Below, piece after piece: positions 7,497-20,429 of a stretch of DNA of 64,000 nucleotides. The translations under genes and the position numbers were made by a program. Every line of letters starts with the position of its first letter. Position 1 is the stretch's first letter. Location of the stretch: NCBI GenBank assembly GCA_018336015.1, contig JAGXQZ010000049.1, forward strand, positions 1 to 64,000, in the 5' to 3' direction. The stretch comes from Algoriphagus sp. (GTDB lineage Bacteria > Bacteroidota > Bacteroidia > Cytophagales > Cyclobacteriaceae). A model generated the notes under the pieces. It had not been told where the DNA came from and made no database searches. It saw only the letters and a list, made by a program, of their open reading frames with translations.

Positions 7497-9983
7497 ATGC
7501 CAAAATTTGATCCTTTTTCATTTGACCTACCCGTTTCAGAAATCATCCCCGAGGTCAAAAAACACCTTTCAGCATCCAACTCCTTAATCATTCAAGCCCC
7601 TCCAGGTGCCGGAAAAAGTACGCTCTTGCCATTGACACTTTTGGATGAACCATGGCTAAAAGGAAAGAAAATCATTATGTTGGAGCCTCGTCGCCTGGCC
7701 ACCAAAAGCATCGCCCAGCGAATGGCTGATATGCTTGGGGAAGACGTCGGAAAAACAGTAGGCTATCGAATCCGATTTGAGTCAGCCATCTCCAACCAAA
7801 CCCGACTGGAAGTGATTACCGAGGGGATTCTCACCCGAATGATGCATCAGGACAATGCCTTGGAAGAGGTAGGTTTGGTGATTTTTGACGAATTCCACGA
7901 ACGCAATCTTTTTTCTGAGGTGGCTTTGGCGCTAGCCAGAGAAGTACAGCAAGTGCTTCGACCGGATTTGAGAATTCTGCTGATGTCAGCCACCATAGAC
8001 GCAGAGCAGCTTTCTCAGCTGTTAGGTTCAAAAGTGATCCAAAGCCAAGGAAGACAATATCCTGTTGAAATAAATTATTTAAATGAAGTGGACGAATATG
8101 CCATCGGTGAGGATACCGCACGGCAAATCATCCCTTTGACCAAGAAGCACACCGGCGATTTTTTGGTCTTTTTGCCCGGTCAGGGCGAAATCAAAAAGAC
8201 CGAAGAAATCCTCAAAAGAGCTCTTCCTGAGGACGTCATTGTTCCACTTTTTGGGCATCTTTCTCCATCGGAGCAAAATCGCGCTATTCTCCCCCATCCT
8301 TCAGGAAAGCGGAAAATCGTTCTTTCCACAGACATTGCAGAGACATCCTTGACCATCGGAGGTGTCCGAGTGGTGGTAGATTCCGGCTTTGCCAAATCGA
8401 ATCGATTTGATGCCCGTTCAGGACTTTCCCGATTGGTTCTGCATCGCATCAGCAAGGATTCCGCTGATCAGCGAAGTGGCCGAGCTGGCCGATTGACTGC
8501 AGGTCATTCCTATCGGCTTTGGTCGAAAGCCACCCAAGCGCAGTTGTCAGAATACAGGACTCCTGAGCTTCTGGAGGCTGATTTGACTTCGTTGGTGCTC
8601 GATATGAAAGCTTGGGGTAAAGAAGATATCCGATCCATGACTTGGCTGACTCCGCCACCAGCAGGTACCTTGGTACTTTCTGAAAAAGTACTCGAAGCCA
8701 TCGATGCGGTGGAAGCTGGAAAATTGACCGACCATGGGAAGGAAATCCATCAGCTGCCCGTTCATCCACGAATCGCCCACATGCTGATCTATGCCAAGCG
8801 GATGAATCAATTGGCTTTGGCCACGGATATCGCTGCGGTATTGGAGGAAAGAGATCCGCTTCCGGCTGATGCGGGCGTGGATTTGAATTTGCGGATTGAT
8901 GCCTTGAGAAAGTTTCGTGATCGAGGTGTCAGCATGTCCCGGATCAAAAAAATCGAAAAAGTAGCCGCGCAGTATCGCCGTCTTTTCAACATTCAGCCCG
9001 AAAATAAACCCGCTGACCCATGGGCCACAGGGCTACTTTTGGCCTATGCCTATCCTGAACGAATCGCTGCTGCTCGTCCGGGAAACAATGCCCAATTTCA
9101 GCTTTCCAATGGGAAAATCGCCCAAATCGGTCATCGCGATGACTTGGCACATGAGTCCTGGCTGGCAGTTGCTCACGTAGATGCACGAGAAGGCTTGGGT
9201 AAAATCTGGATGGCAGCCCCGCTCAACCCAAAAGATTTGGCTCCGATGCTCAAGACCAAGGAAGTCTTGGAATGGGATCGAAAAAAAGGGGGACTGATCG
9301 CGCATTCAGAAATCCGGATTGGTGCCATCATTTTGGGTACACGACCGCTTCAAAAGTTTGATAAGTCCTTGGCCAAGCAAGCTATTCTTGAGGCAATTCA
9401 GGAAGAAGGACAATTCCTCCTGGATTGGAATGAGGAGGTGCTGCAGCTGATTTTCCGGGTGCAATCCTTGAAAAAATGGAATCCAGAACAAAATTGGCCA
9501 GATTGGTCGGTTGAAACGCTTTGTCAAAGCTCACCGGAATGGTTGGAACCTTATTTGGAAAATATCTCCAAAAACGAGGATTTCAAAAAACTGGACTTGA
9601 GTCAAATTCTCCTTCATTCCCTTTCTTTTGAGCAGCAACAACTTCTGGAATCTTTGGCCCCTTCAAAAATTACCGTTCCTTCGGGCAGTCAGACCAGGCT
9701 CGAATACAAAGAAGAGGGCGTTACTCCCCTGCTTTCCGTTCGACTGCAAGAATTATTCGGCTTACTCGACACGCCCAAAGTCAATCAGGGAAAAGTGGCG
9801 GTATTGATCGAAATGCTGTCTCCGGGTTACAAACCGGTGCAGCTTACTCAGGATTTAAAGAGCTTTTGGGCCAATGGCTATTTCGAAGTGAAAAAAGAAC
9901 TGAAAAGGCGCTACCCCAAACACGAATGGCCAGAAGATCCCATCAGTGCCGAAGCGGTACGAGGAGTCAAAAAACGGTTTTAA
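7497..9983 (+). CDS. hrpB: ATP-dependent helicase HrpB
   Basis: DEAH-box RNA/DNA helicase. Walker A is APPGAGKST (residues 34-42), Walker B/DEAH is DEFH (131-134), followed by LMSATID (motif III) and the RxGRAGR motif (QRSGRAGR). The HA2/winged-helix region and the C-terminal HrpB-specific domain follow (C-terminal part ends EWPEDP.AVRGVKKRF). 828 aa, the usual length for HrpB. The in-frame TTG at 7488 was not used as the start because it lies within the -7 promoter box; the ATG gives a normal N-terminus. The family function is poorly defined; a role in RNA metabolism is inferred. It ends 2 bases from a convergent gene. Confidence 0.93.
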   Translation: MPKFDPFSFDLPVSEIIPEVKKHLSASNSLIIQAPPGAGKSTLLPLTLLDEPWLKGKKIIMLEPRRLATKSIAQRMADMLGEDVGKTVGYRIRFESAISNQTRLEVITEGILTRMMHQDNALEEVGLVIFDEFHERNLFSEVALALAREVQQVLRPDLRILLMSATIDAEQLSQLLGSKVIQSQGRQYPVEINYLNEVDEYAIGEDTARQIIPLTKKHTGDFLVFLPGQGEIKKTEEILKRALPEDVIVPLFGHLSPSEQNRAILPHPSGKRKIVLSTDIAETSLTIGGVRVVVDSGFAKSNRFDARSGLSRLVLHRISKDSADQRSGRAGRLTAGHSYRLWSKATQAQLSEYRTPELLEADLTSLVLDMKAWGKEDIRSMTWLTPPPAGTLVLSEKVLEAIDAVEAGKLTDHGKEIHQLPVHPRIAHMLIYAKRMNQLALATDIAAVLEERDPLPADAGVDLNLRIDALRKFRDRGVSMSRIKKIEKVAAQYRRLFNIQPENKPADPWATGLLLAYAYPERIAAARPGNNAQFQLSNGKIAQIGHRDDLAHESWLAVAHVDAREGLGKIWMAAPLNPKDLAPMLKTKEVLEWDRKKGGLIAHSEIRIGAIILGTRPLQKFDKSLAKQAILEAIQEEGQFLLDWNEEVLQLIFRVQSLKKWNPEQNWPDWSVETLCQSSPEWLEPYLENISKNEDFKKLDLSQILLHSLSFEQQQLLESLAPSKITVPSGSQTRLEYKEEGVTPLLSVRLQELFGLLDTPKVNQGKVAVLIEMLSPGYKPVQLTQDLKSFWANGYFEVKKELKRRYPKHEWPEDPISAEAVRGVKKRF

Positions 9984-9985
9984 AC

Positions 9986-10603
9986 TCAGAGATGATCCAA
10001 AAAATCAAGCAATTGGAGAAATGAGGCGATGGTAAACGGTGTCAATTCCTTTTGTTTGATTTGGTGAAGATATAGTTGCCTTAACTCTTCATATCCTTCC
10101 CTGTGGTACAATCTGGCTAGAGTAACCCCTCTAAAAGCGTGATAAACAAAATTTTGATTGGGAAATGGTTGTGCTTGCTGTATTTCAAATGCCAATTCTA
10201 AAGATTTAGAATCAGACATCGTATCCAGCCAGTGAAATCCATGTTTGACAAAAAATTCCTCTCCTTTTTCGATGGCTTCAATTAGATTGAATTCATGATC
10301 CAACACAAATCTCTTCGGAATGCCCGCCTTAATCGCATCGGGAGCTTGAATTAGTGTGATAGATCGCTGTGCGTAATCGCTCAGCGTGGGAAGGAACTTG
10401 TGAATAATAGTCTCCACCAAATGATTCCTGATTCCCAATTTATACTCTAAATAAGAAACATCAGGATACTCGGTATAATGCACGAAGATTACCTGGTTAC
10501 CTTCGGTAAATGGCTTTTCAAACAAAAGATGTTGGGGATGAAAGGCAAATCCAAAATCTCTGAAAAACCCAAAATGCAGATCGATAACTTCCTCTTTCCT
10601 CAT
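9986..10603 (-). CDS. Hypothetical protein
   Basis: Uncharacterised soluble protein of 205 aa. No signal peptide, membrane segment or motif is recognised. Its composition is rich in aromatic residues and His (for example RDFGFAFHPQHLLFEKPF). The C-terminal half (from about residue 130) is helical and could be an alpha-solenoid or TPR-like fold, which is weak inference. It is tail-to-tail with hrpB and 39 bases downstream of the HEAT-like gene on the same strand, so the two may be cotranscribed. Confidence 0.6.
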   Translation of the reverse strand: MRKEEVIDLHFGFFRDFGFAFHPQHLLFEKPFTEGNQVIFVHYTEYPDVSYLEYKLGIRNHLVETIIHKFLPTLSDYAQRSITLIQAPDAIKAGIPKRFVLDHEFNLIEAIEKGEEFFVKHGFHWLDTMSDSKSLELAFEIQQAQPFPNQNFVYHAFRGVTLARLYHREGYEELRQLYLHQIKQKELTPFTIASFLQLLDFLDHL

Positions 10604-10642
10604 AGTTTAAAAACAGAGGAAAATGGCAAATGTTGTATTCGA

Positions 10643-11164
10643 TCAGGAGAATAATTCTTTCAGCTCCTGAAGCATAGGCTCCACTTCTGACTTTTTCAAG
10701 ATCAGACTTCCTTCATCTTCAGGGTTGTGCAAGTAATGATTCCAGTGTTTTTCCGCTTTTCGGATGGTACGCGGGGTAATGTCAAATTCCACACTGTCCA
10801 AGTAATCTTTGGCTAAGGTAGATGCCTTAAAATTGCCAAACAGGTACACTCTAAAAATGTCCACAAAGCGCTCAGCCAAGTCAAATTCCTCTAAAATCTG
10901 AGCGAATGCACCTTGAACTGACCTATTCTTTTTATCAAATATTGCCTCAAAAATCGCATCCAAAGACTCTTCATTCCATGAGGTCTTGGATAGTGCACGA
11001 CATGCGAGGTAAGCAATCTCCCAATTATCTCCTTTCACGAGCGTAATCAGATGATTTTTGGTTTCTTCATCCGCCATTGCTCCCAATTTATCCGCAAAGT
11101 GATAGGCTTCGTCTTCTTTTGGGTCGCACATCCGGTTGAGGATTTTTTGGATTTCTTCCTGCAT
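10643..11164 (-). CDS. HEAT-repeat-like protein
   Basis: A 173-aa all-helical cytoplasmic protein. The segments AMADEETKNHLITLVKGDNWEIAYLACRAL and SWNEESLDAIFEAIFDKK have the spacing of HEAT/armadillo repeats; the rest is similar. The ATG at 11164 is chosen over an in-frame start 21 bases upstream. It is divergent from the VLRF1 gene, whose ATG lies 48 bases away, so the two share a short promoter region. Function unknown; a protein-protein scaffold role is inferred only from the fold. Confidence 0.65.
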   Translation of the reverse strand: MQEEIQKILNRMCDPKEDEAYHFADKLGAMADEETKNHLITLVKGDNWEIAYLACRALSKTSWNEESLDAIFEAIFDKKNRSVQGAFAQILEEFDLAERFVDIFRVYLFGNFKASTLAKDYLDSVEFDITPRTIRKAEKHWNHYLHNPEDEGSLILKKSEVEPMLQELKELFS

Positions 11165-11212
11165 GATTTTTCGGTTTCTTTGCACAAAGATAGCCTAAAT
11201 GGCTTCCCAAAC

Positions 11213-11917
11213 ATGACCATTCCCCAATCCATTTCTTTAAGCTTATCTGATGCGGAGCAAATCCTTACTACAGCTAAGGAGTCCCATTGGATCGTGAATT
11301 ACGAGGAGGAAAAGCATCAGTTGGTTTTGGAAAGGGAAAATGAGTGGCTGGCAAAAATGTACTTGCCTTGGACTTACGAGTGGGATGAAAAGAAGGGATT
11401 GGCCGTTCGGCATGAAACCCATTTTTCCTTGGCCTTGATCCGGGCAGGACAGGCTGCGGTTGGGTATTTTCATCAGGGTCAACTGATCGATCATCGGGTT
11501 TTCCGGGCCTATATGGTCCGACAAAAGCAAGGAAAATCCCAAATCAAACACCTGAAAACCAAAGGAAAATCCAGAGCAGGTTCACGTATCAGATTAGCTG
11601 AGACAGCGCGTTTTTTTGAAGAAATCAACGAACGGCTTCAATCCTACTCCGCGCAGTATCCCATGGATTTTTGGGGGATCAGTTGTGCCAAAACGATGTG
11701 GCCCTACTTTTTTGATTCGGAGGTCTCCCCTCCTTTTTCTTCCAAGGATAACAACCTGATCGAACTGCCTTTTCATATCGCACAGGCCTCTTTTGAAGAA
11801 CTAGAAAAAGCCGGACAGCTATTATCCCAATTTCACCTGATCCTATCGGACAAGGGGAAAGAAGCGATAAATCTTACCTCAGAAAAAATAGAACATACCG
11901 ACTCGGGAGACTGGTAA
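11213..11917 (+). CDS. Vms1-like release factor (VLRF1 domain) ribosome-rescue protein
   Basis: Predicted peptidyl-tRNA-cleaving release factor of the Vms1/ANKZF1 (VLRF1) group. The diagnostic segment lies at residues 98-130: RQKQGKSQ (103-110), KTKGKSRAGS (115-124), then RIRLAET. It follows the eukaryotic Vms1 pattern RxKQGGSQ...K...SAG..LRR.NE, with Q110 at the place of the catalytic Gln. ANKZF1 and Vms1 release nascent chains from stalled 60S subunits; bacterial VLRF1 proteins are known from comparative genomics of release factors. 234 aa from the ATG at 11213. An upstream in-frame extension to 11051 runs antisense through the HEAT-like gene and was rejected. Family assignment is by motif reading and should be confirmed by profile search. 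Confidence 0.7.
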   Translation: MTIPQSISLSLSDAEQILTTAKESHWIVNYEEEKHQLVLERENEWLAKMYLPWTYEWDEKKGLAVRHETHFSLALIRAGQAAVGYFHQGQLIDHRVFRAYMVRQKQGKSQIKHLKTKGKSRAGSRIRLAETARFFEEINERLQSYSAQYPMDFWGISCAKTMWPYFFDSEVSPPFSSKDNNLIELPFHIAQASFEELEKAGQLLSQFHLILSDKGKEAINLTSEKIEHTDSGDW

Positions 11918-12219
11918 GATTTGGAAGGTTGTTAATCCTAGAGATTCAACATTTCTCTAAATCTTAGAAATCAAACTACTATCGGTACAGATCTCCTTCT
12001 TTTTCAGGAATATGCAGCGGAAACCATAAAAATCTATGACTTCCATTTGCCAGGCCAAGTGCGCATACTTGTAAACTAAGATTTGGAGGAGAAAGGTAAT
12101 CGGGCTATTTTGATAAAGATTTCGGAGGAAGAAGGGCAAAAAAATAATTGTAACCTCAAGGTGCACAAATCTGCCGAAAATTGGGTGCATTAGTGTACCA
12201 AAGGTGCATAAATAAATGA
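11918..12219. other. Gene-free left flank of the cassette-like array
   Basis: No convincing gene. A 77-codon minus-strand ORF (11957-12190) has no recognisable family. The right end carries three imperfect direct repeats with core GGTGCA at 12160, 12184 and 12203, just before the first recombination-type core GTTACCAG at 12220. GTAAC at 12150-12154 could be the left partner of that core. This is where an attI or an older attC would be expected. Confidence 0.4.
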
Positions 12220-12234
12220 GTTACCAGTAATTTT

Positions 12235-12891
12235 ATGAGCCGACAAGAAAGACGAAAAAATAAACGGGACAGACAAAAAGCTTTTGAAAAAAAGACACCT
12301 TATGAACCTGCGACAAAAGGAGCAAGAATTTTTGTTATTGCTACTTCGTTGACAATTGTTTTCTTGTTTCTTTATTTAGCTCTTCGTGACAATTCATTAC
12401 CTGACAATGAACTAAGCACAATTTATGTTACGCTCAAAGACACTCCAAAATATGACGAATACAAAATCAAATCGACCACTTACAGAGACATTATACTGAC
12501 AACCAAAGAATATCAACGTGAATTTAAAATCACAGCAATGACATACAAGGCGACTGACCATAACGCCTTTAAAGCAAATGTTCTTGCTGGCGACAAAGTA
12601 GAACTCAAAGTGAAAAAATCCGAACTTGACGACTTGAACGAAAATACCTTTTGGAATAACTATAATGATGTTTATGGTCTTAGTAAAAATGGCAATAGCT
12701 ACGTTGACATTGAATTAAGAACTGAATTAACAGACAAAGACAGCAAATGGTCTTATTTTTTTGTAATCATTGGTTTGGTAATGTTGCCTTATGGTTTTAT
12801 AAAAAGTAAACCATTAATTAGTATGGACAAAGCAATAACAGCGACAGCGGTAATTGGACTAATAATAATGCTAATTGTCAGCAGACTATGA
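12235..12891 (+). CDS. Cassette A membrane protein, unknown function
   Basis: A 218-aa protein of no recognised family. It has a very basic N-terminus (SRQERRKNKRDRQKAFEKK), a membrane segment at about 32-48, a soluble domain of about 120 aa, and two C-terminal membrane segments (about 168-188 and 196-215). The ATG lies 15 bases after the cassette core GTTACCAG, typical of tightly packed cassette genes. Codon use is AT-rich compared with flanking genes (many AAT, AAA, GAC-rich stretches), which suggests transfer. A near -7 box (TAATTTTA) overlaps the ATG and is badly placed, so its promoter is not identified. Confidence 0.7.
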   Translation: MSRQERRKNKRDRQKAFEKKTPYEPATKGARIFVIATSLTIVFLFLYLALRDNSLPDNELSTIYVTLKDTPKYDEYKIKSTTYRDIILTTKEYQREFKITAMTYKATDHNAFKANVLAGDKVELKVKKSELDDLNENTFWNNYNDVYGLSKNGNSYVDIELRTELTDKDSKWSYFFVIIGLVMLPYGFIKSKPLISMDKAITATAVIGLIIMLIVSRL

Positions 12892-12900
12892 GAAAAACTA

Positions 12901-13036
12901 CTGGTAACACGGGTTTGGCAAAAGTGGCGGTTCAGTGCTCCGCAGACACATTTTTGGTTAATCAAAGTTTGATTCTCCGCATCAACATTTGTGGTGAAAA
13001 TCGCCACCTTCGCCAAGCCCGAAACCGTTATGGCAA
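12901..13036 (+). repeat. attC-like site 1 (cassette A)
   Basis: Imperfect palindrome. Left arm CTGGTAAC (12901-12908), GGGTTTGGC (12911-12919) and GTGGCG (12924-12929) pairs with CGCCAC (13002-13007), GCCAAGCCC (13012-13020) and GTTATGG (13027-13033). The inner part holds a perfect 7-bp hairpin AATCAAA-G-TTTGATT (12960-12974) and two near-identical direct copies starting CTCCGCA. A length of about 135 bp is within the range of long attC sites. Confidence 0.65.
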
Positions 13037-13316
13037 ATTCTAAAAAAACCAAAACTTCAAAAACCTACAAATTTTCATAGACTTTAAAGGGGTTTAGTTC
13101 GATAGCTTAAACAAAACATTTGAAATAGCATTCAAGAAAAAAATCCTGATAAAATTTAAATTATTGGATTATTTGAGCTTGTTTTTACCAAAAGGAAAGA
13201 ATTCAATTAAGAGAAAAGAGACAGACTTAAAAATGTAATTCCTAGGAAAAATGGAGATTAAAAGAGGTAGTAAAAGTGGGATAAAAATATAATAGCGGAC
13301 ACCTTTTGGTTGTAAA

Positions 13317-13667
13317 ATGGAAAATCCTATCATTGGTTCTTTATTAATTATTATTGGTGCGATTAGCTATTGGCTGATGTCCATAATGGATTTCAAAGAT
13401 GAATTTTCAGATAGTACTAAATTTAGAGGATATTCTGCCTCAGTGATTTTTATAATTTTGGGTATATATATACTTTCAAAACTTCTTCTTTTTGGTCTAG
13501 CAGGATTTATACTTTTGATATGTTCTTCAGGTTTATTGATTTACGGTATAAAAACAAATCGAATAGGTACTTCTTTCAATTCACTTAAGCCATCGTTAGT
13601 AATTTTTATAATTCTTACATTTATTATCTCACTTGTGTTATTCCTAGGAAAATCAGTAACCCTTTAA
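13317..13667 (+). CDS. Cassette B small integral membrane protein
   Basis: A 116-aa protein that is almost entirely hydrophobic, with four predicted membrane segments (about 4-22, 41-57, 59-77 and 93-111). Short loops carry the charged residues (KDEFSDSTKFRGY and KTNRIGTS). No family recognised. It lies in the distal half of cassette B, after about 280 bases of AT-rich sequence (13037-13316) in which I see no gene. Its AT-rich composition differs from the backbone. Confidence 0.6.
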   Translation: MENPIIGSLLIIIGAISYWLMSIMDFKDEFSDSTKFRGYSASVIFIILGIYILSKLLLFGLAGFILLICSSGLLIYGIKTNRIGTSFNSLKPSLVIFIILTFIISLVLFLGKSVTL

Positions 13668-13701
13668 TTTTATGAAAATCAAAAAAAGTGAAAAAAGAAA
13701 C

Positions 13702-13836
13702 TTGCCATAACATCACCTTGGATACAGCGGGCGGTTCAGAGTAAATAAAAAGTTTAGTATCTTTAAGAAGTTAGGAGTAAGCTGGAAGAGAACGGCTCCG
13801 AATGCCCGCCGTCTCCAAGCTGAATCACGTTGTGTG
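13702..13836 (+). repeat. attC-like site 2 (cassette B)
   Basis: The left arm TTGCCATAAC (13702-13711), CTTGGATAC (13717-13725) and GCGGGC (13727-13732) pairs with GCCCGC (13804-13809), GTCTCCAAG (13811-13819) and the core GTTGTGTG (13829-13836). The ten left-most bases are the exact complement of the first ten bases of cassette B (13027-13036). Confidence 0.65.
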
Positions 13837-13876
13837 TCAGCTTAGAAAACCGACAACAGACCAAACACGATAAATA

Positions 13877-13910
13877 TTGTTTCTATTTTTGGAAACTTTC
13901 ATTATCTTTG
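13877..13910 (+). promoter_or_regulatory. Predicted higBA promoter inside cassette C
   Basis: TATCTTTG at 13903-13910 is an exact TAnnTTTG -7 box. A TTG at 13877-13879 lies 23 bases upstream. The box ends 24 bases before the higB ATG, so the toxin-antitoxin pair carries its own promoter, as is usual for cassette-borne modules. Confidence 0.55.
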
Positions 13911-13934
13911 TGACGTTTAACAAGACAGTATTGA

Positions 13935-14270
13935 ATGAGATTTTTTGAAACAAAATTTTTAGAAGAAGCAAACGAGTTCATTTCACAACTCGACCCAAAG
14001 ACAATAAAGAAAGTCTTTTACAATATTGACCTTGCTGAACAAACAAATGACCCAAAACTTTTTAAGAAGCTTCAAAATGACATTTGGGAGTTTCGGACAA
14101 AGTTCGCAGGGCTTCAAATTAGACTTCTTGCATTTTGGGACAAGACAGATAACAAAGAAACTTTGGTAATAGCGACCCACGGTTTCATAAAGAAAGTTGA
14201 CAAAGTGCCGGCTAACGAAATTGACCGGGCCGTAAGACTGAAAGACAAATATTTTAGTAATAAACATTAA
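13935..14270 (+). CDS. higB: Type II toxin, RelE/HigB (phage Gp49-like) family
   Basis: Toxin of the RelE/ParE superfamily, expected to be a ribosome-dependent mRNA interferase in the cytoplasm. The 111-aa protein shows the Gp49/HigB pattern: KKVFYNIDLAE, then DIWEFRTKFAGLQIRLLAFWDK with the conserved W-E-(F/L)-R segment (about residues 56-60), then the C-terminal HGFIKKVDKVPANEIDRA. It lies 10 bases upstream of the antitoxin gene, in toxin-first order as in higBA. It is the first gene of cassette C and has its own promoter. Toxin-antitoxin modules are frequent stabilising cargo of integron cassette arrays. Confidence 0.85.
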   Translation: MRFFETKFLEEANEFISQLDPKTIKKVFYNIDLAEQTNDPKLFKKLQNDIWEFRTKFAGLQIRLLAFWDKTDNKETLVIATHGFIKKVDKVPANEIDRAVRLKDKYFSNKH

Positions 14271-14280
14271 AAGTAATCAT

Positions 14281-14607
14281 ATGGCAACCAAAGAATTAAA
14301 GACATACTCACTTGCCGAGATGAAAGACAAGTATATCGGCAAAGTTGGAACGACTGAACGAGACGAATACGAATATGAGCTTCGTATGGACGTTTTGGGC
14401 AAAATGATTAAAACAGCCAGACAAGAAAGAAACTTAACACAAGAAGAACTTGGACGACTTGTAGGTGTTCAAAAAGCTCAAATTTCTAAACTTGAAAGCA
14501 GTGCTAACAGTGCGACAATTGACACTATTTTGAAAGTGTTTAAGGCATTGAAAGCTGAAATAAACTTTAACGTGAAACTTGAAGACAACTTTGTCAAACT
14601 CGCCTAA
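14281..14607 (+). CDS. higA: HigA-type antitoxin, XRE-family HTH
   Basis: Antitoxin and autoregulator paired with the HigB toxin. The 108-aa protein has an N-terminal toxin-binding part (about 1-35) and a helix-turn-helix domain at about 38-92 (IKTARQERNLTQEELGRLVG then QKAQISKLES). The stop codon TAA lies within GCCTAAC at the edge of the downstream palindromic region. It is expected to repress the higBA promoter at 13903 by binding near it; no clear operator palindrome was identified. Confidence 0.87.
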   Translation: MATKELKTYSLAEMKDKYIGKVGTTERDEYEYELRMDVLGKMIKTARQERNLTQEELGRLVGVQKAQISKLESSANSATIDTILKVFKALKAEINFNVKLEDNFVKLA

Positions 14608-14624
14608 CAGAAATGAAAACCGAA

Positions 14625-14972
14625 CGCACAACAGCCGTAACCGTTGCACAACTACTCGTCAAACTTCAGGATTTTTCATTGTTGGGTTTTAGGTTGTCAC
14701 AGGATATGCCTAATGGGCCGGGATTTGATAGTTTATGCCAAAAATCCAAACCTAGTAACCAAACTATCTAAAGGTATCTTTGTCCTTAAAATCAGGGCTA
14801 AAAGCGCCATCTACGGGTTTTTTGGGCTACTTTAGGATCACGAACAGAACAGAAAATCCAAATTCATTTTTGAATCCAATTCAGTTTCCAAACCGCCAAA
14901 ACCACCTAAACGGCTCTGAAATAGGCTTTTATTTAAAAATGAATGGTTTTTTTACGGTCTGACGTTATGGGT
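14625..14972 (+). repeat. attC-like site 3 (cassette C), with a long internal insert
   Basis: The left arm CGCACAAC (14625-14632) with AGCCGTAA (14633-14640) pairs with TTACGG-TCT (14952-14960) and the core GTTATGGGT (14964-14972). The arms are about 310 bases apart, far more than in sites 1, 2 and 4. The interior has no gene but holds secondary hairpins, including GATAGTTT/AAACTATC near 14728-14767. The small ORFs inside it look spurious. Confidence 0.5.
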
Positions 14973-15006
14973 TATGCTAAAAGACAACAAAACAAATTTG
15001 ATACTT

Positions 15007-15561
15007 ATGGAGAATATTTTGAATAACGATATAAAATCTAAAATTAAGGGGCTTGCAATATATCAAATTGCAGGTGGTATAATTGGCATTGGACTGACAA
15101 TTTGGTTAATCGCACAAACAGTGACAATCACTGGACTTGTAATTTTGTTTTTTATTCTTGCCGCTGGACTTTATTCATTCTCTATTTATTGCGGACAGCA
15201 ATTATTAAAAGGGCAAATAAAAAGCGGACTTAAACTTTCGATAATTAATCAGGCTCTACAAGTTATAAATTTTGCAGTTTTGGGATATGCCTTCAAATTT
15301 GTAGCTGGACTAATACTTTCTATTGGTATTAACTACACTAACGATTTTAAAATCACCTTTAATTTTTCACTTTCTGAATTTCAATTCAATATAAATAGTG
15401 AAAAAGAATTGGTAACGGTTGGATTTAATGTTGTTGCAATTTATTTGGTTTATTTCATTGACAAATTGCAACAAGATATAGAAAATAGAGAAACTTTGTT
15501 CAAGGCATCTCAAAATATCGACACTAATACAGAAAGCTTGACAACAGAAGAAAAGCTATAA
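15007..15561 (+). CDS. Cassette D membrane protein, unknown function
   Basis: A 184-aa integral membrane protein of no recognised family. It has about four membrane segments (roughly 15-35, 40-60, 80-105 and 145-165), with a loop before the last segment that is rich in Asn, Phe and Ser (KITFNFSLSEFQFNINSE), and an acidic, Thr-rich C-terminal tail. The ATG at 15007 is chosen over the in-frame ATG at 14974. A near -7 box CAAATTTG (14993-15000) ends six bases before the 15007 ATG, the same geometry as at hrpB. Confidence 0.65.
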   Translation: MENILNNDIKSKIKGLAIYQIAGGIIGIGLTIWLIAQTVTITGLVILFFILAAGLYSFSIYCGQQLLKGQIKSGLKLSIINQALQVINFAVLGYAFKFVAGLILSIGINYTNDFKITFNFSLSEFQFNINSEKELVTVGFNVVAIYLVYFIDKLQQDIENRETLFKASQNIDTNTESLTTEEKL

Positions 15562-15586
15562 ACTTTTTGAAATAAGACGAAGAACT

Positions 15587-15646
15587 ACCCATAACAACTA
15601 AGCTTTCGTTGCGTGCGGAGCACGTACAATGAAAGCGCTGTTGCAC
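15587..15646 (+). repeat. attC-like site 4 (cassette D), 60 bp
   Basis: This is the compact and clearest site. ACCCATAAC (15587-15595) and AGCTTTCGTTGCGTGC (15601-15616) pair, around the loop GGAG, with GCACGTACAATGAAAGC and the core GTTGCAC (15640-15646). Its length of 60 bases equals the classical 59-base element. The first nine bases are the exact complement of the start of cassette D (14964-14972). Confidence 0.7.
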
Positions 15647-15772
15647 AAAAACGGTGAGGTTCCTATGGGGATTGAATCGGAATTTCAGTTGAACTTGTAA
15701 GGTCTGGAAGCTAAAAAAGTCTCCCCAGAATTATTGATCACATTCAAAAAGCCATCTAATTAAAGAGTTTTC
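15647..15772. other. Right flank of the cassette array, no gene seen
   Basis: This stretch lies between the last attC-like core and the terminator at 15773. It has only very short ORFs. It may be the remnant of a gene or flank interrupted when the array formed. No further cassette is present. Confidence 0.35.
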
Positions 15773-15805
15773 AGCCCTTCCAGACCCGTTTTGGAAGGGC
15801 TTTTT
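15773..15805 (+). terminator. Terminator closing the cassette region
   Basis: AGCCCTTCCA (15773-15782) pairs with TTGGAAGGGCT (15791-15801) around a short loop, followed by TTTTTG. It would stop transcription leaving the cassette array. Confidence 0.8.
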
Positions 15806-15833
15806 GTTGGCCCCTATCACCAGTAATCTACAA

Positions 15834-15873
15834 ACAAAAAAACCTTTGGCCTCGACGAGCGAAACCAAAGGTT
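15834..15873 (-). terminator. Terminator for the TM2/DUF2752 pair
   Basis: On the minus strand, AACCTTTGG and CCAAAGGTT form a perfect 9-bp stem followed by a run of T (the A run at 15834-15842 on the plus strand). It lies 30 bases past the TM2 gene. Confidence 0.85.
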
Positions 15874-15903
15874 GGTTAGTGGTGTAAGTAATTAGGCTAG
15901 TTC

Positions 15904-16281
15904 TTAGAAGCTTGAGCTTCCGGAACTTGGGAAATTGTTGGAAATCATCGCCATGGTCTCATGGGCTACTTTGATGTTAAACTCATAAGCCAAGCTCTTG
16001 TAATTGACCAAGTCCACGATGGTACCGATGAAACACAAACCAAGGGTTAGGATGTAGAGAATACCCAAACCCACCTGACCAAGGATAAATCGGTGTAGTC
16101 CGGCAAATCCAAAGAAACCAAGCAAGGTCAAGATCAAAATCATCTGAGAATCCTTTCTTCTAGCCCGGTAAACCTGCGCAAAGAGCGAAGCTTGATCCTC
16201 GTCCATATTTTTCATCAATCCCTGAATGTAGCCCAGTTCCATACCTTCCAGTTCAGGGAGATGCCTCAATACATTAGCCAT
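15904..16281 (-). CDS. TM2 domain-containing membrane protein
   Basis: A 125-aa inner-membrane protein. The TM2 domain at about residues 45-95 shows the typical ILTLLGFFGFAGLHRFILGQ, then GLCFIGTIVDLVNY, with two membrane helices joined by the G-x-HRF turn. A helical N-terminal cytoplasmic region of about 42 aa and a Ser-rich C-terminus (SSGSSSF) flank it. The function of prokaryotic TM2 proteins is unknown. The start overlaps the DUF2752 stop by 8 bases, so the two are translationally coupled; similar TM2-DUF2752 pairs are familiar in Bacteroidota. Confidence 0.88.
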   Translation of the reverse strand: MANVLRHLPELEGMELGYIQGLMKNMDEDQASLFAQVYRARRKDSQMILILTLLGFFGFAGLHRFILGQVGLGILYILTLGLCFIGTIVDLVNYKSLAYEFNIKVAHETMAMISNNFPSSGSSSF

Positions 16282-16579
16282 AATTGTGTGTTGTTTTTAG
16301 GTTTTTGATTAAAGTCCAAATTCGGTGAAGGATCACACCAAAGGCCAGCATTGCCAGCGGGTGCATGGACCAGGAAGCCTGAATCTCTCCCCGCGCGAGG
16401 AGGCTCATCGACCGTCCCAATCCACATCCCGGACACCAGCTGAAGCCCATGCTATCCAGCGGGCAAAGGCTGAAATGATGTCCTGCATCTGGATTGATCG
16501 TGAAGATGGCAATTAAGCTACCGATCCAAAAGATCAATTCCAAAGGGGTGCGTCTAAGCCATGAGGTGATTTCCTTCAT
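16274..16579 (-). CDS. DUF2752 domain-containing membrane protein
   Basis: A 101-aa membrane protein with the DUF2752 signature: cysteines in CPLDSMGFSWCPGCGLGRS, with membrane helices before (about 12-30) and after (about 70-92). The CPGC motif hints at metal or redox binding, but the family is uncharacterised. The ATG at 16579 is chosen over a TTG nine bases upstream, which lies in a TACTTTG stretch that resembles a -7 box. First gene of the pair with TM2. Confidence 0.85.
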   Translation of the reverse strand: MKEITSWLRRTPLELIFWIGSLIAIFTINPDAGHHFSLCPLDSMGFSWCPGCGLGRSMSLLARGEIQASWSMHPLAMLAFGVILHRIWTLIKNLKTTHNYG

Positions 16580-16687
16580 GCAGGACAAAGTACGAAAAAG
16601 GTGCCATCTGGCAAATGTGGCCTATATGCCCTGATTTCCGCGATGGTGTAAAAATCTTGGATGATTTGCGTACAAGAAAGTGTCCGA

Positions 16688-17770
16688 TTATGTACGCTTT
16701 AATTCGGGTAGTCTAATTTCAAGTACTTTTCCAAACTGAGCTTGCTGCTGGGTATGGAGGTTTTTCCTCAGCGCTTTGTATCCTTTCTTTCCTCCAAAAT
16801 TCTTCCTTCCCGCAAAATTAAACACCAAACCCAAGATCTCTCCCGGGACCTTAATTTCTGGTTTTAGATTTAATGCTTCTGATGCCTCTTGACCTAAAAA
16901 AAAGGAAAGAATTCCCTCAGCCTGAGCGTTGAGCACCGGATCGAGTATTGTTTTTTGATAAAAATGAAGCAGACCTTTTACCAAACGCTGCCCTGCTTCT
17001 GAGGATTTCAAATGCCTTTTTCGGATCAGCTTATCCAATTCGAAGGCCTCTTTGGTCGTAGTTGGCCAAAATTGAGTCTCAATTCCCATCAGCTCCCCGA
17101 TCCATTTCCAATAACTCAAGACCGATTCGTATATTTTTTCCGAAGGTGCTGCGCCCATTTTGGCCAAACCTCTCAATACGATATGGCTAAAGGCTAGATT
17201 GGTGCCGAGCATATCTTCTTGATTCACAGGTTGACCGAAAGCCAACTCCCAGTCTTTAGCATAAGTCAGGATGAAATACCTACTCAATGCATGGATCAAT
17301 CGGACTTTAGCACAAACCAAATATGCTTGATCCTGTACGGAAAACGCCCCCGGGCGAAAGATCTCCAAGACAAAGGAGGCCGTCTCCCCTAGCCTCTCCC
17401 CGATCTGATCCAAAATCCGATTGGACCGAACCAATACCTGTGCACCATCAGCAAAGGCATAGCAGTAAGGCAGAGAATAAAAGCCAAGCATGGCGAGGTA
17501 GAGGTCTCCATTTTCCTCAAAAAAATCCTGAGCTGATCGGAGATCGGATTCATCATACTCCTGTGCCTTATCAAGGTAAAAAGTAAAAAATGCCTTCAGT
17601 TCGGCGGGGAAATCCTTTGGAAGGTCTTCAGGAATCACATTCCATGAATTGATCTCAGTGATCAAACTTGGGTTTTGGACCAAAGAAAAAACCGCCTGAT
17701 CAGCTAAGTTATCCTGCCTCTTTCTGAGTTGATCAAATACCGAATTGGTGTAAAACTGTAATTTCTCCAC
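16688..17770 (-). CDS. MpaB-family (DUF2236, rubber-oxygenase-like) oxygenase
   Basis: Haem-dependent oxygenase family related to fungal MpaB and latex-clearing protein. The 360-aa protein shows the family signatures: an R-x-x-H pair in KVRLIHALSR (about residue 152-161), and the downstream DMLGTNLAFSHIVLRGL segment (D...G..FS pattern). It is largely helical, with no signal peptide. The start is GTG (17768-17770 on the plus strand); no in-frame ATG is close. The substrate is unknown. It is divergent from the following gene pair with only 49 bases between starts. Confidence 0.82.
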   Translation of the reverse strand: MEKLQFYTNSVFDQLRKRQDNLADQAVFSLVQNPSLITEINSWNVIPEDLPKDFPAELKAFFTFYLDKAQEYDESDLRSAQDFFEENGDLYLAMLGFYSLPYCYAFADGAQVLVRSNRILDQIGERLGETASFVLEIFRPGAFSVQDQAYLVCAKVRLIHALSRYFILTYAKDWELAFGQPVNQEDMLGTNLAFSHIVLRGLAKMGAAPSEKIYESVLSYWKWIGELMGIETQFWPTTTKEAFELDKLIRKRHLKSSEAGQRLVKGLLHFYQKTILDPVLNAQAEGILSFFLGQEASEALNLKPEIKVPGEILGLVFNFAGRKNFGGKKGYKALRKNLHTQQQAQFGKVLEIRLPELKRT

Positions 17771-17819
17771 CTCATTCTAACCTGCATTTTGTAATTTGGT
17801 TGGCCTAGAATCTTATTTC

Positions 17820-18713
17820 ATGTTAAAAAATATAGCTCTTCTTGTTTTTCTTTCTTTGGCGATCTGTCAAACCCTTCTGGCTCAGGCTGCTTCTGATCTT
17901 TGGGTAGTCGATACCGAAGGAAAGGGTGGAAAGATCAAACTCCTTACTTCCACTGCAAAACCCCTCACCAACCGACCGGAATACGACAATCAGCCCAATT
18001 TCATCAACGATTCGGAATTGGTCTTTTCGGCAGCGGATCAAAAAGGCAACCATGACATTATCCTGTATAGTTTCCGCACAGGCAATTTTACCAACCTGTC
18101 CAAAACGCCCGACCGAAGCGAATATTCCCCCAATCTCACCGACTGCAAGCAGTACATTTCGGCTGTGGTTGTAGAGCCGGATGGAAAGCAGCGGCTTTGG
18201 CTGTATCCGATTATCGGTGAAGCGCCTGAGCTTTTGTATGATGACATTGCTCCTGTGGGCTATTACGACTGGTATGACAACAAAGCGGCCATGTTTGTAT
18301 TAGGCGAACCCAACAAACTGGTCTATGCCCGAGGAAAAGGAAATGTGCAGGAGATTTCTAAAAATATTGGCAGGTCTGTCAAAAAACGCCCAAATACATC
18401 CGAAATCGCCTACCTAGACCGAAATGACTTAAAGTCAAGCTCAGAAGGAGATCAAGTAAGCATCAAGTCAATTAACCTGAAGACCAATACCACCGAATCC
18501 TTTGGATACACCCTTTCGGGTTCGCAGGATTTGATTTGGATCGACAAAAACCATTTGCTGATGGCAAAAGGAAATGAGGTCTTTATCAAAAATGTGAGAG
18601 ATTCAGATTGGCTTTCTCTCGGAAAAATCGAATCTTCGACCCATCAGAACATTACCCGAATGGCATACAGTCCTGAGTTGAACAAGCTCGTGTTTGTCAT
18701 GAATAGAAAATAA
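17820..18713 (+). CDS. Secreted TolB-like beta-propeller (PD40) protein
   Basis: A 297-aa periplasmic or secreted protein with a signal peptide (MLKNIALLVFLSLAICQTLLAQ). WD40-like PD40 repeats are visible as DNQPNFINDSELVFSAADQKGNHDIILYSF and RSEYSPNLTDCKQYISAVVV, giving a partial beta-propeller as in TolB. The ATG at 17820 is chosen because the in-frame TTG at 17796 sits in a -7-like box (TAATTTGG, 17792-17799) and the ATG begins the signal peptide. It lies 13 bases before the SMP-30 gene, so they form an operon. Role unknown; possibly substrate sensing or binding. Confidence 0.8.
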   Translation: MLKNIALLVFLSLAICQTLLAQAASDLWVVDTEGKGGKIKLLTSTAKPLTNRPEYDNQPNFINDSELVFSAADQKGNHDIILYSFRTGNFTNLSKTPDRSEYSPNLTDCKQYISAVVVEPDGKQRLWLYPIIGEAPELLYDDIAPVGYYDWYDNKAAMFVLGEPNKLVYARGKGNVQEISKNIGRSVKKRPNTSEIAYLDRNDLKSSSEGDQVSIKSINLKTNTTESFGYTLSGSQDLIWIDKNHLLMAKGNEVFIKNVRDSDWLSLGKIESSTHQNITRMAYSPELNKLVFVMNRK

Positions 18714-18726
18714 CACCCAATAACCT

Positions 18727-19650
18727 ATGAAAAACTTATTCAAATCAGCGGTGGTTTTGTCCGCACTTCTTTTGGCAGGAAATATGCTGCAAGCTCAAAT
18801 CGATGACAAACGCGGTATTGTAGCCAAAGGAGCCCAATTGGAAAAAGTAAAGGATGGCTTCAGTTTCACGGAAGGTCCTGCAGTCAACCGACAGGGAGAC
18901 ATATTTTTCACGGATCAGCCAAATGATAAAATCTACCGCTGGAACCCCAATTCAAATCAAGTAACCTTATTTAAAGAAGGTGCAGGTAGATCCAATGGCT
19001 TGTATTTTCAGTTGGATGGCAAGCTCATCGCTGCGGCTGACTTGAACAATGAATTGTGGGAAATCGATCAGCAAACTGGGAAAGAGACAGTGTTGGTCTC
19101 CTCTTTTAGAGGAAAAAAGCTCAACGGTCCAAATGACGTTTGGGTAAGACCAAAAGGTGGTTTGTACTTCACGGATCCACTCTATCCTAGACCTTATTGG
19201 GAGGGTATTCGAACAAAAGATATGCAGCAAGACGGGCAGCACGTGTATTACTTATCTGCGGATCGAACCGAACTTTTCCGAGTGGCCGAAGACCTCAAGC
19301 AGCCCAATGGCATAGTGGGTACTCCTGATGGCAAATACCTGTATGTAGCAGATATCGGAGACAAAAAAACCTGGAAATATGAGATTCAGGAAGACGGGTA
19401 TTTGACCAACAAAACACTTTTCTGCGAAATGGGATCGGATGGAATGACCATTGACGAGCGTGGCAATGTGTACCTGACCGGAAAAGGAGTCACCGTATTT
19501 GACCGAAACGGAGAGCAAATCGCACATATTCCGGTTCCTGAAAACTGGACCGCTAATGTGGCTTTTGGTTCCTTAACCAGAAACACCCTGTTTATCACCG
19601 CGATGGGATCTGTCTATACCCTAAAAATGAAACACAGAGGAGTTTGGTGA
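18727..19650 (+). CDS. Secreted SMP-30/gluconolactonase family protein
   Basis: A 307-aa six-bladed beta-propeller hydrolase of the SMP-30/gluconolactonase/LRE family, exported by a signal peptide (MKNLFKSAVVLSALLLAGNMLQAQ). Family landmarks are FTEGPAVNRQGDIFFTD (metal-binding Glu), LNGPNDVWVRPKGGLYFTDP (Asn and Asp ligands), QPNGIVGTPDGKYLYVAD and GSDGMTIDERGNVYLT. It probably hydrolyses a sugar lactone or related ester in the periplasm, with a divalent metal. Second gene of an operon with the TolB-like protein. Confidence 0.88.
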   Translation: MKNLFKSAVVLSALLLAGNMLQAQIDDKRGIVAKGAQLEKVKDGFSFTEGPAVNRQGDIFFTDQPNDKIYRWNPNSNQVTLFKEGAGRSNGLYFQLDGKLIAAADLNNELWEIDQQTGKETVLVSSFRGKKLNGPNDVWVRPKGGLYFTDPLYPRPYWEGIRTKDMQQDGQHVYYLSADRTELFRVAEDLKQPNGIVGTPDGKYLYVADIGDKKTWKYEIQEDGYLTNKTLFCEMGSDGMTIDERGNVYLTGKGVTVFDRNGEQIAHIPVPENWTANVAFGSLTRNTLFITAMGSVYTLKMKHRGVW

Positions 19651-19664
19651 AAAAGCTGGAAGTG

Positions 19665-19706
19665 GGAAGACCGAAGACCGAAGTTTTCTTCCGTCTTCGG
19701 TCTTCC
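19665..19706. terminator. Perfect 13-bp inverted repeat between convergent genes
   Basis: GGAAGACCGAAGA (19665-19677) is the exact complement of TCTTCGGTCTTCC (19694-19706). The stem lacks a proper T run, yet sits between two convergent stops, so it may act as a bidirectional terminator. Its units (GACCGAA) are internally repeated; similar palindromes occur at 25245-25300 and 62700-62745. Confidence 0.5.
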
Positions 19707-19718
19707 GTCTTCGCGCTA

Positions 19719-20429
19719 CTACCAACAATTCCCATCCACATCGCAGCTTTCGCCTTCGTTTCCGGAAGCAATGTCTAGCACAGGGTTATTTTTAGCGTAT
19801 TCCGCCCAAGCCTTTTCCAGAGTCTGATCAAATACCTCATCCGGTTGAGCTCCTGAGATGCCGAATTTTCGATCCAACACAAAGAAAGGCACTCCCCTCA
19901 CTCCGATTTGTCTGGATTCATAAATATCCTGATAAACAGCTTCTTCATACTGATTGGATTCAAGCATGGGTTTAATTTTTTCCTCAGGCACCCCAACTTC
20001 TTTTCCAAGCTGTATCAAGGTATCAGTATCATCCACATTGAGACCATCGGTAAAGTAAGCCTTCAGCAATCGCTCTTTCATGGCGTCTTGAATTCCAAAT
20101 TCTTTAGCAAGGTGAATCAGGCGATGGGCATTTTTGGTATTTGCTACGACTGCCTTATCAAAGTCAAAGGTCAAGCCTTCTGCCTTGGCCATTCCCACCA
20201 CTTGGGAAGTGATTTGTTTGGTTTGCGCCATGGACCAGCCTTTTGATTGGGAGAGATCCTCCAAGGTGTTGACGCCTGGCTTGGTTTGCTGATCAGGATT
20301 TAATTGAAAGCTCTTCCACTCGATTTCGACTTTTTCTTTAAATGGAAATTTCTGTAGCGCCTTTTCCATCTTTCTTTTTCCGATGTAGCAAAAAGGACAC
20401 ACGACGTCAGACCAAATCTCGATTTTCAT
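19719..20429 (-). CDS. DsbA-family oxidoreductase (FrnE-like)
   Basis: A 236-aa thioredoxin-fold protein of the DsbA/FrnE group. The active-site CPFC is at residues 11-14 (SDVVCPFCYIGKRKM), and the cis-Pro region is GVRGVPFFVLDRKFGISGAQ near residue 178. No signal peptide is present, so it acts in the cytoplasm as a thiol-disulphide oxidoreductase or 2-hydroxychromene isomerase-like enzyme. An extra C-terminal Cys pair (SCDVDGNCW) is notable and could bind metal or shuttle disulphides. Monocistronic and convergent with the SMP-30 gene. Confidence 0.9.
   Translation of the reverse strand: MKIEIWSDVVCPFCYIGKRKMEKALQKFPFKEKVEIEWKSFQLNPDQQTKPGVNTLEDLSQSKGWSMAQTKQITSQVVGMAKAEGLTFDFDKAVVANTKNAHRLIHLAKEFGIQDAMKERLLKAYFTDGLNVDDTDTLIQLGKEVGVPEEKIKPMLESNQYEEAVYQDIYESRQIGVRGVPFFVLDRKFGISGAQPDEVFDQTLEKAWAEYAKNNPVLDIASGNEGESCDVDGNCW

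Follow-up and report, generated by a model that had tools for sequence, protein, structure and literature searches.

A cassette array on an Algoriphagus contig

Within the 64,000 nucleotides analysed here (positions 1 to 64,000 of the forward strand; hereafter, the window), contig JAGXQZ010000049.1 of the Algoriphagus sp. assembly GCA_018336015.1 carries four co-oriented gene cassettes that resemble those of integrons (this contig is C49 in our numbering; handles beginning with G, C and L denote genomes, contigs and loci). They lie back to back behind an attI-like site and are bounded by five GTT cores, at 12220, 13027, 13829, 14964 and 15640. These cores, and the complementarity of each cassette start to the R'' box of its own downstream attC-like site (14/15 positions in A, 10/10 in B, 7/8 in C and 9/9 in D), had been claimed in a sequence-only reading of the window and were reproduced; the attI-like site to the left of cassette A is an addition to that anatomy. 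That reading also found no integrase in the window, and contig C49 indeed has neither a TIGR02249 match nor a recombinase match. The features are given below, with scores from R1, a covariance model built from 43 attC-like sites (alignment A2) that include none of the window sites and three from contig C52 of the same genome.

12157-12222, + strand: attI-like site containing GGTGCA motifs; its right end is the GTT core of cassette A, and its own recombinase gene is absent here
12221-13027, + strand: cassette A
12235-12891, + strand: open reading frame of cassette A, 218 amino acids (aa), without a Pfam family
12899-13036, + strand: attC-like site A (R1 106.1 bits, E = 4.5e-20)
13028-13829, + strand: cassette B
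13317-13667, + strand: open reading frame of cassette B, 116 aa, with a weak, sub-cut-off match to Yip1
13702-13838, + strand: attC-like site B (R1 90.7 bits, E = 6.7e-17)
13830-14964, + strand: cassette C, toxin–antitoxin, with homologous cassettes in G079 and G123
13935-14270, + strand: Gp49/HigB-like toxin of cassette C, 111 aa (PF05973, E = 2.7e-15)
14281-14607, + strand: helix-turn-helix antitoxin of cassette C, 108 aa (PF01381, E = 9.9e-12)
14623-14971, + strand: degenerate or interrupted attC of cassette C (R'' 14625-14632, right core 14964; no R1 match)
14965-15640, + strand: cassette D
14974-15561, + strand: open reading frame of cassette D, 195 aa, without a Pfam family
15586-15688, + strand: short attC-like site D and a conserved array-end module (80-93% identical stretches elsewhere)
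11918-15835, + strand: the block as a whole, an insertion that comprises the attI-like site, the four cassettes and the end module
11051-11917: bVLRF1 release-factor gene, left flank of the block
15904-16281, − strand: TM2 gene, right flank of the block

The proposed array of four units with attC-like sites holds for the anatomy of A, B and D, each of which is terminated by an imperfect palindrome, and fails in part for C, the attC of which is degenerate. An AAC lies at 14630 in C and its start matches the R'' box at 7/8 positions (GTTGTGTG versus CGCACAAC), with the arms of the attC about 330 bp apart; site D is short, at 47 bp from core to core. The roughly 330 bp within the attC of C (14633-14963), which match nothing among the fetched loci, are perhaps an insertion or the trace of a failed recombination. 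Stretches 92-95% identical to attC A occur at L264, L120, L130 and L138, and attC B shares 89% identity with the attC that comes first in the C52 array in the same genome.

Conserved hairpins and the circle relation

Taken alone, the window provides moderate evidence for an array that did not arise by chance: ten dinucleotide shuffles gave best chain scores of 22.5-37, compared with 36.5 for the chain of A and B, and one of the ten scored higher. Sites were therefore gathered from further loci. Because a strict chain search overlooked several arrays and looser settings produced chains without attC character (L085 and L086), R1 and a single-core chain search were adopted instead. The consensus fold of A2 has 15 pairs, 14 of which show changes on both sides among the 43 sites, and the bottom strand folds more stably in 40/53 sites. 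Across the system, the sites thus have the features of attC: imperfect palindromes, AAC/GTT cores and a structure that is kept.

Sites A and B were the only R1 matches in the window. The genome as a whole yielded at least seven (150/803 first-look candidates scored): two on C49, the three training sites on C52 and one each on C70 and C107. The control stretches L091-L094 had no match. The sites on C70 and C107 are single attC-like sites (L264 and L270) that lie outside both arrays.

To quantify the relation between a cassette start and its own attC, we entered 150 R1 matches; both cores were present in 129, which yielded 72 consecutive pairs. The seven bases after the core matched the R'' box of the next site at a mean of 5.71/7 positions, with 54/72 pairs scoring 6 or 7. 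When only the 39 pairs with a downstream site outside the training and chained sets were counted, the mean was 5.26/7, with 24/39 at 6 or 7. Random pairing of starts and R'' boxes gave a mean of 2.56, and none of 5,000 permutations equalled the observed value. The R' and R'' boxes within one palindrome match at a mean of only 2.83/7 positions, far below the match of a start to its own R''; these comparisons indicate that the R'' box belongs to the cassette and not to the linear site, as a circular form requires. Starts complementary to the R'' of their own attC are found both in the window and in other arrays, which tells against the possibility, raised in the sequence-only reading, that the palindromes are ordinary terminators.

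A recombinase next to attI-like sites and arrays

On contig C52 of the same genome lies a gene for a tyrosine recombinase of 419 aa; behind it come two direct repeats, a GTT core, three cassettes with attC-like sites and purH, in that order. Recombinases of this type, at 55% identity or more, occur in 16 further genomes of the genus. We fetched 20 recombinase loci including the C52 locus (L142 holds a shorter relative at 51% identity and L143 a partial one). In all 20, as judged by eye, a short site ending in GTT lies 29-106 bp behind the recombinase gene, placing an attI-like site beside the enzyme gene throughout. Chained cassettes follow in 15/20 loci, with two or more units in 13 and 39 units in total. 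Among 2,000 random starts searched with the same 190-bp entry span, 47 had at least one unit and none had two or more; the corresponding numbers were 66/2,000 and 0 with a 250-bp span, and 17/1,500 and 0 with a 120-bp span. A second recombinase group also has chained units behind it, in 7/11 fetched loci. The contig ends within 6 kb behind the recombinase in 7/19 sister stretches, which may reflect the repeated attC sites.

These recombinases are not IntI. The sequence-only reading had expected an IntI-type enzyme with its additional domain, the defining feature of an integron; such an integrase is absent here: no IntI exceeds the family cut-off in the Algoriphagus genome in question, and a search of 72 genus genomes at E = 1e-45 gave no match (control genomes were also silent, and the same model matched the IntI of G025 elsewhere). 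The array-linked recombinase is about 40 residues shorter than IntI at the position of that domain. The spacing between motifs, obtained for all but nine of 95 proteins, is 68 residues in 15/16 proteins of the C52 group (type 1) and 63-64 in the second group (nine proteins measured), compared with 105-106 in two IntI proteins; the outlying values of 111 (an Xer-like protein of the same genome) and 146 (a type-1 protein) are doubtful motif matches. Among solved structures, IntI4 and XerA give the best matches; the alignment with IntI4 is split in two by the additional domain of the latter. In a quick tree of 95 rows, which drew long-branch warnings, four IntI proteins form one branch (support 98) apart from both recombinase groups, and the second group splits into two branches.

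The N-terminal part of the enzyme resembles the HARP domain. PF07443 scores 15.9 bits for the C52 protein, below the curated cut-off of 25, and is matched by 15/16 members at E values of up to 5 (best 7e-4). An 84-residue piece of an N-terminal model gives a weak fold match to 5tnu and 4o66, which are chains of XPB and of the SMARCAL1 HARP domain. Both the HARP domain of SMARCAL1 and its counterpart in XPB serve in DNA recognition.

Insertion of the block and differences beyond the cores

The window attI-like site can be related to these recombinases. Positions 12158-12238 show 76-78% identity to sequence located about 14 bp past the recombinase genes of the Algoriphagus genomes G229 and G233, and shorter matches (27-39 bp) adjoin the recombinases of G215, G178 and G244; because the site matches recombinase-adjoining DNA, the window appears to hold an attI-like site plus an array without its own enzyme. 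Nine attI-like sites in other Algoriphagus genomes (L249-L257) share the motif over 26-42 bp and have no recombinase within the fetched stretch. The window case is thus not unique; a chained unit lies behind the motif in 3/9 of these.

At 20/29 sister loci (the best-scoring of the 69 sister genomes that have a TM2 match), only 46-161 bp separate the bVLRF1 and TM2 genes, which identifies the whole window block as an insertion. The gap is 780-922 bp at six of the 29 loci, and the bVLRF1 match is missing at three. Change exactly at the GTT cores, as expected from the sequence-only reading, was not seen in this form at the window itself, where sisters lack the entire block from 11918 to about 15835; it was seen at homologous recombinase loci. 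Loci L261 and L262 share 96% identity over 3,131 bp up to the attI core; beyond it they differ, with an array-end stretch in common further on. Likewise, L090 and L125 match on the recombinase side as far as the core and match again starting about 94 bp past the last attC of L090; the DNA in between shows no similarity, so that the flanks are common and the cassettes are not. Similarity also ends six bases or fewer from the core between L090 and L126, L090 and L127, and L258 and L259.

Homologues of cassette C in three other genera share its start and R'' box, and the attC bodies behind them differ. DNA similarity to the cassettes of G079 and G123 begins at 13827 and 13818, respectively, and ends at 14638 and 14635. 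At L056 and L087, which hold homologues of the toxin–antitoxin pair, ends like those of cassette C were not seen by eye.

Distribution across the genus, family and class

R1 sites were found in 62/72 genomes of the genus, including all 50 good ones, and in 152/198 sampled genomes of the class; because scoring covered part of the candidates, the numbers of sites per genome are minimum values. The recombinase profile (E = 1e-60) matched 102/198 class genomes. Recombinase and attC matches co-occur: 98 genomes have both, 4 the recombinase only, 54 attC only and 42 neither (P = 5e-12, Fisher test, not corrected for kinship). We determined placement for 39 attC rows picked from the printed lists for the class, and the array is downstream of the recombinase on the same strand in 29. 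IntI passes the cut-off in 2/196 genomes of the family, G025 (303 bits) and G080 (partial).

Interpretation and alternatives

We consider it very probable that the window is an integrase-less copy of an integron-like platform served by Xer-like recombinases that have a HARP-like N-terminus and lack the IntI additional domain. The sequence data support this through the anatomy, the circle relation, the covarying hairpins, the linkage of recombinase, attI-like site and array, and the presence of differing cassettes behind the same attI core. Most likely, the window copy lost its recombinase or was moved without one. The C52 enzyme could possibly act on it in trans; the attI motif at C52 differs from that of the window.

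A number of observations weigh against this interpretation. Recombination itself was never observed. Cassette C is without a proper attC, site D is short and R1 matches neither. No recombinase gene lies in the window, and at E = 1e-40 the genome offers only the C52 enzyme and a frame on C27. Against the IntI model, the C52 protein reaches 214 bits (cut-off 265); with 233 bits against a cut-off of 220 it passes the NCBI XerA model NF040815, which itself bears the name 'site-specific tyrosine recombinase/integron integrase'. The HARP match is under the Pfam cut-off, and the similarity in fold is weak as well (E = 0.02-0.03). Five of the 20 recombinase loci have no chained unit; of these, L128 and L141 reach contig ends, the recombinase of L137 has an internal stop, and L142 and L143 are the short and partial relatives (L137, L142 and L143 do carry R1 sites). 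Among 80 named loci from other Bacteroidota and a few other phyla, of which 79 had a readable stop, at least one unit follows the gene in only 27 and two or more in 16, so many relatives of the recombinase show no array. Less than 600 bp of DNA lies behind the gene in 28/79; in the 47 loci with at least 1 kb, 25 have one or more units and 16 have two or more. Some relatives have a different gene directly behind them: at L156, L157, L161, L165, L171 and L202 the attI-like site is replaced by what looks, by eye and from its motif, like a gene for a single-strand DNA-binding protein. Of the 96 class genomes without a recombinase match, 54 carry attC matches. Finally, the array is upstream on the opposite strand in 8/39 chosen pairs (one further pair is upstream on the same strand and one is far away).

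The most serious alternative is an ordinary cluster of attC sites lacking integron integrases (CALIN), with cassettes gathered by a classical IntI integron that is lost or lies elsewhere and with the Xer-like recombinases as bystanders. By R1, sites A and B qualify as a CALIN (at least two attC sites and no neighbouring integrase), CALINs are common in bacteria according to parts of two papers (PMC8618304 and PMC9668308), and the family does contain IntI over the cut-off in G025 and G080, the former also with a 12-site array and a cassette C homologue. We nevertheless regard it as improbable, because IntI is found in 0/72 and attC in 62/72 genomes of the genus, an attI-like site lies behind the non-IntI recombinase in 20/20 loci (by eye) and chained cassettes in 15/20, and no array was found in the 20 kb around the G025 IntI (L084), for which reason that enzyme was rejected as the source of the arrays.

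It is more doubtful still that the host XerC/XerD, and not the neighbouring recombinase, moves the cassettes. Where it treats Xer and CTXphi, one paper (PMC7790495) names those relatives closest to IntI that have no I2 domain, making Xer-type action on folded DNA conceivable. Against this, the attI-like motifs vary with the adjoining recombinase group, and the 20-kb stretches around two Xer-like genes on C51 of the same genome (L093 and L094) have no R1 site, although the latter is weak evidence. That the units are ordinary terminators or repeat palindromes between co-oriented genes, with chance matches, has next to nothing to recommend it beyond the one in ten shuffles that beat the A and B chain in the window, given the result of 0/5,000 permutations, the compensatory changes in 14/15 pairs, the seven or more genome-wide matches (three of them training sites) and the breaks in homology at the cores.

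If cassettes of the platform behave as integron cassettes do, they would be excised as circles and inserted into attI at the GTT core, a single folded attC strand recombining with attI at G|TT. The HARP-like part would read the hairpin, standing in for the extra helix of IntI. Elsewhere in the genus, the recombinase gene is located just before attI and points towards the array. According to parts of one study (PMC7790495), IntI uses its I2 helix to dock the bases that stick out of the attC hairpin; enzymes from which the helix was deleted are inactive, and no other protein was found to contain it.

The platform shares with IntI integrons a tyrosine recombinase gene, an adjacent attI-like site, arrays of cassettes with short genes, hairpin attC-like sites with AAC/GTT cores and the circle relation between start and R''. 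It differs in its recombinase, which lacks the IntI additional domain, falls outside the IntI branch of the quick tree, has a HARP-like part at its N-terminus and is usually oriented towards the array (PMC8352920, in the portion available, mentions an inverted sub-clade of IntI). Like a CALIN, the window has attC-like sites and cassettes with no recombinase nearby; unlike one, it retains an attI-like site, and its presumed enzymes belong to a family other than IntI. The recombinase resembles XerA and archaeal Xer (5hxy and NF040815), with SAM-like and catalytic domains that align unbroken and a passing NF040815 score, but has the HARP-like part and is tied to attI-like sites and arrays. The likeness to HARP of SMARCAL1 and to XPB lies in the weak PF07443 sequence match and the weak match to 5tnu and 4o66, whereas here the HARP-like part is fused to a recombinase, without a helicase.

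We lean somewhat towards a broader proposal: that this is a second, class-wide kind of integron in Bacteroidota, in which recombinases without the I2 helix reached folded-attC recombination independently, a fork- or distortion-recognising HARP-like domain replacing the helix. Integron surveys search by the additional domain of IntI. We found no description of non-IntI integrons of Bacteroidota in the open-access literature of PubMed Central (PMC; preprints and subscription papers lay outside this scope), and the portions available of PMC9024848, PMC8618304, PMC2426708, PMC9668308, PMC7790495, PMC8352920, PMC7923331 and PMC7370490 describe no such system. Should the system work as proposed, capture of cassette genes would be common in a major phylum, and the requirement for I2 in single-strand attC recombination could be tested with a natural enzyme that lacks it.

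Further observations

A PADLOC search of the window cargo gave matches confined to the toxin–antitoxin pair, for the toxin at best E = 5e-11 (NsnC, C-terminal part) and for the antitoxin to helix-turn-helix families; an Rfam search of window positions 8000-20000 gave no match. The C27 frame (L002; G000:C27:83967-84203) was set aside on account of an internal TGA, the lack of a HARP part and the absence of R1 matches in the surrounding 20 kb (L091). It has matches of equal length and near-equal score in seven other genomes, which suggests that it belongs to a shared mobile element.

The 12-site array of G025 (L083; G025:C6:178000-194522) shows regular own-start matches and carries the cassette C homologue, and the IntI of this family member is on another contig; cassettes may pass between IntI and non-IntI systems. 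Site D together with about 45 bp behind it (15580-15688) recurs at the ends of arrays at L103/L133, L138, L139, L245, L254 and L263, and looks like a conserved 3' end of arrays. Several draft contigs stop just past an array-end module of this type.

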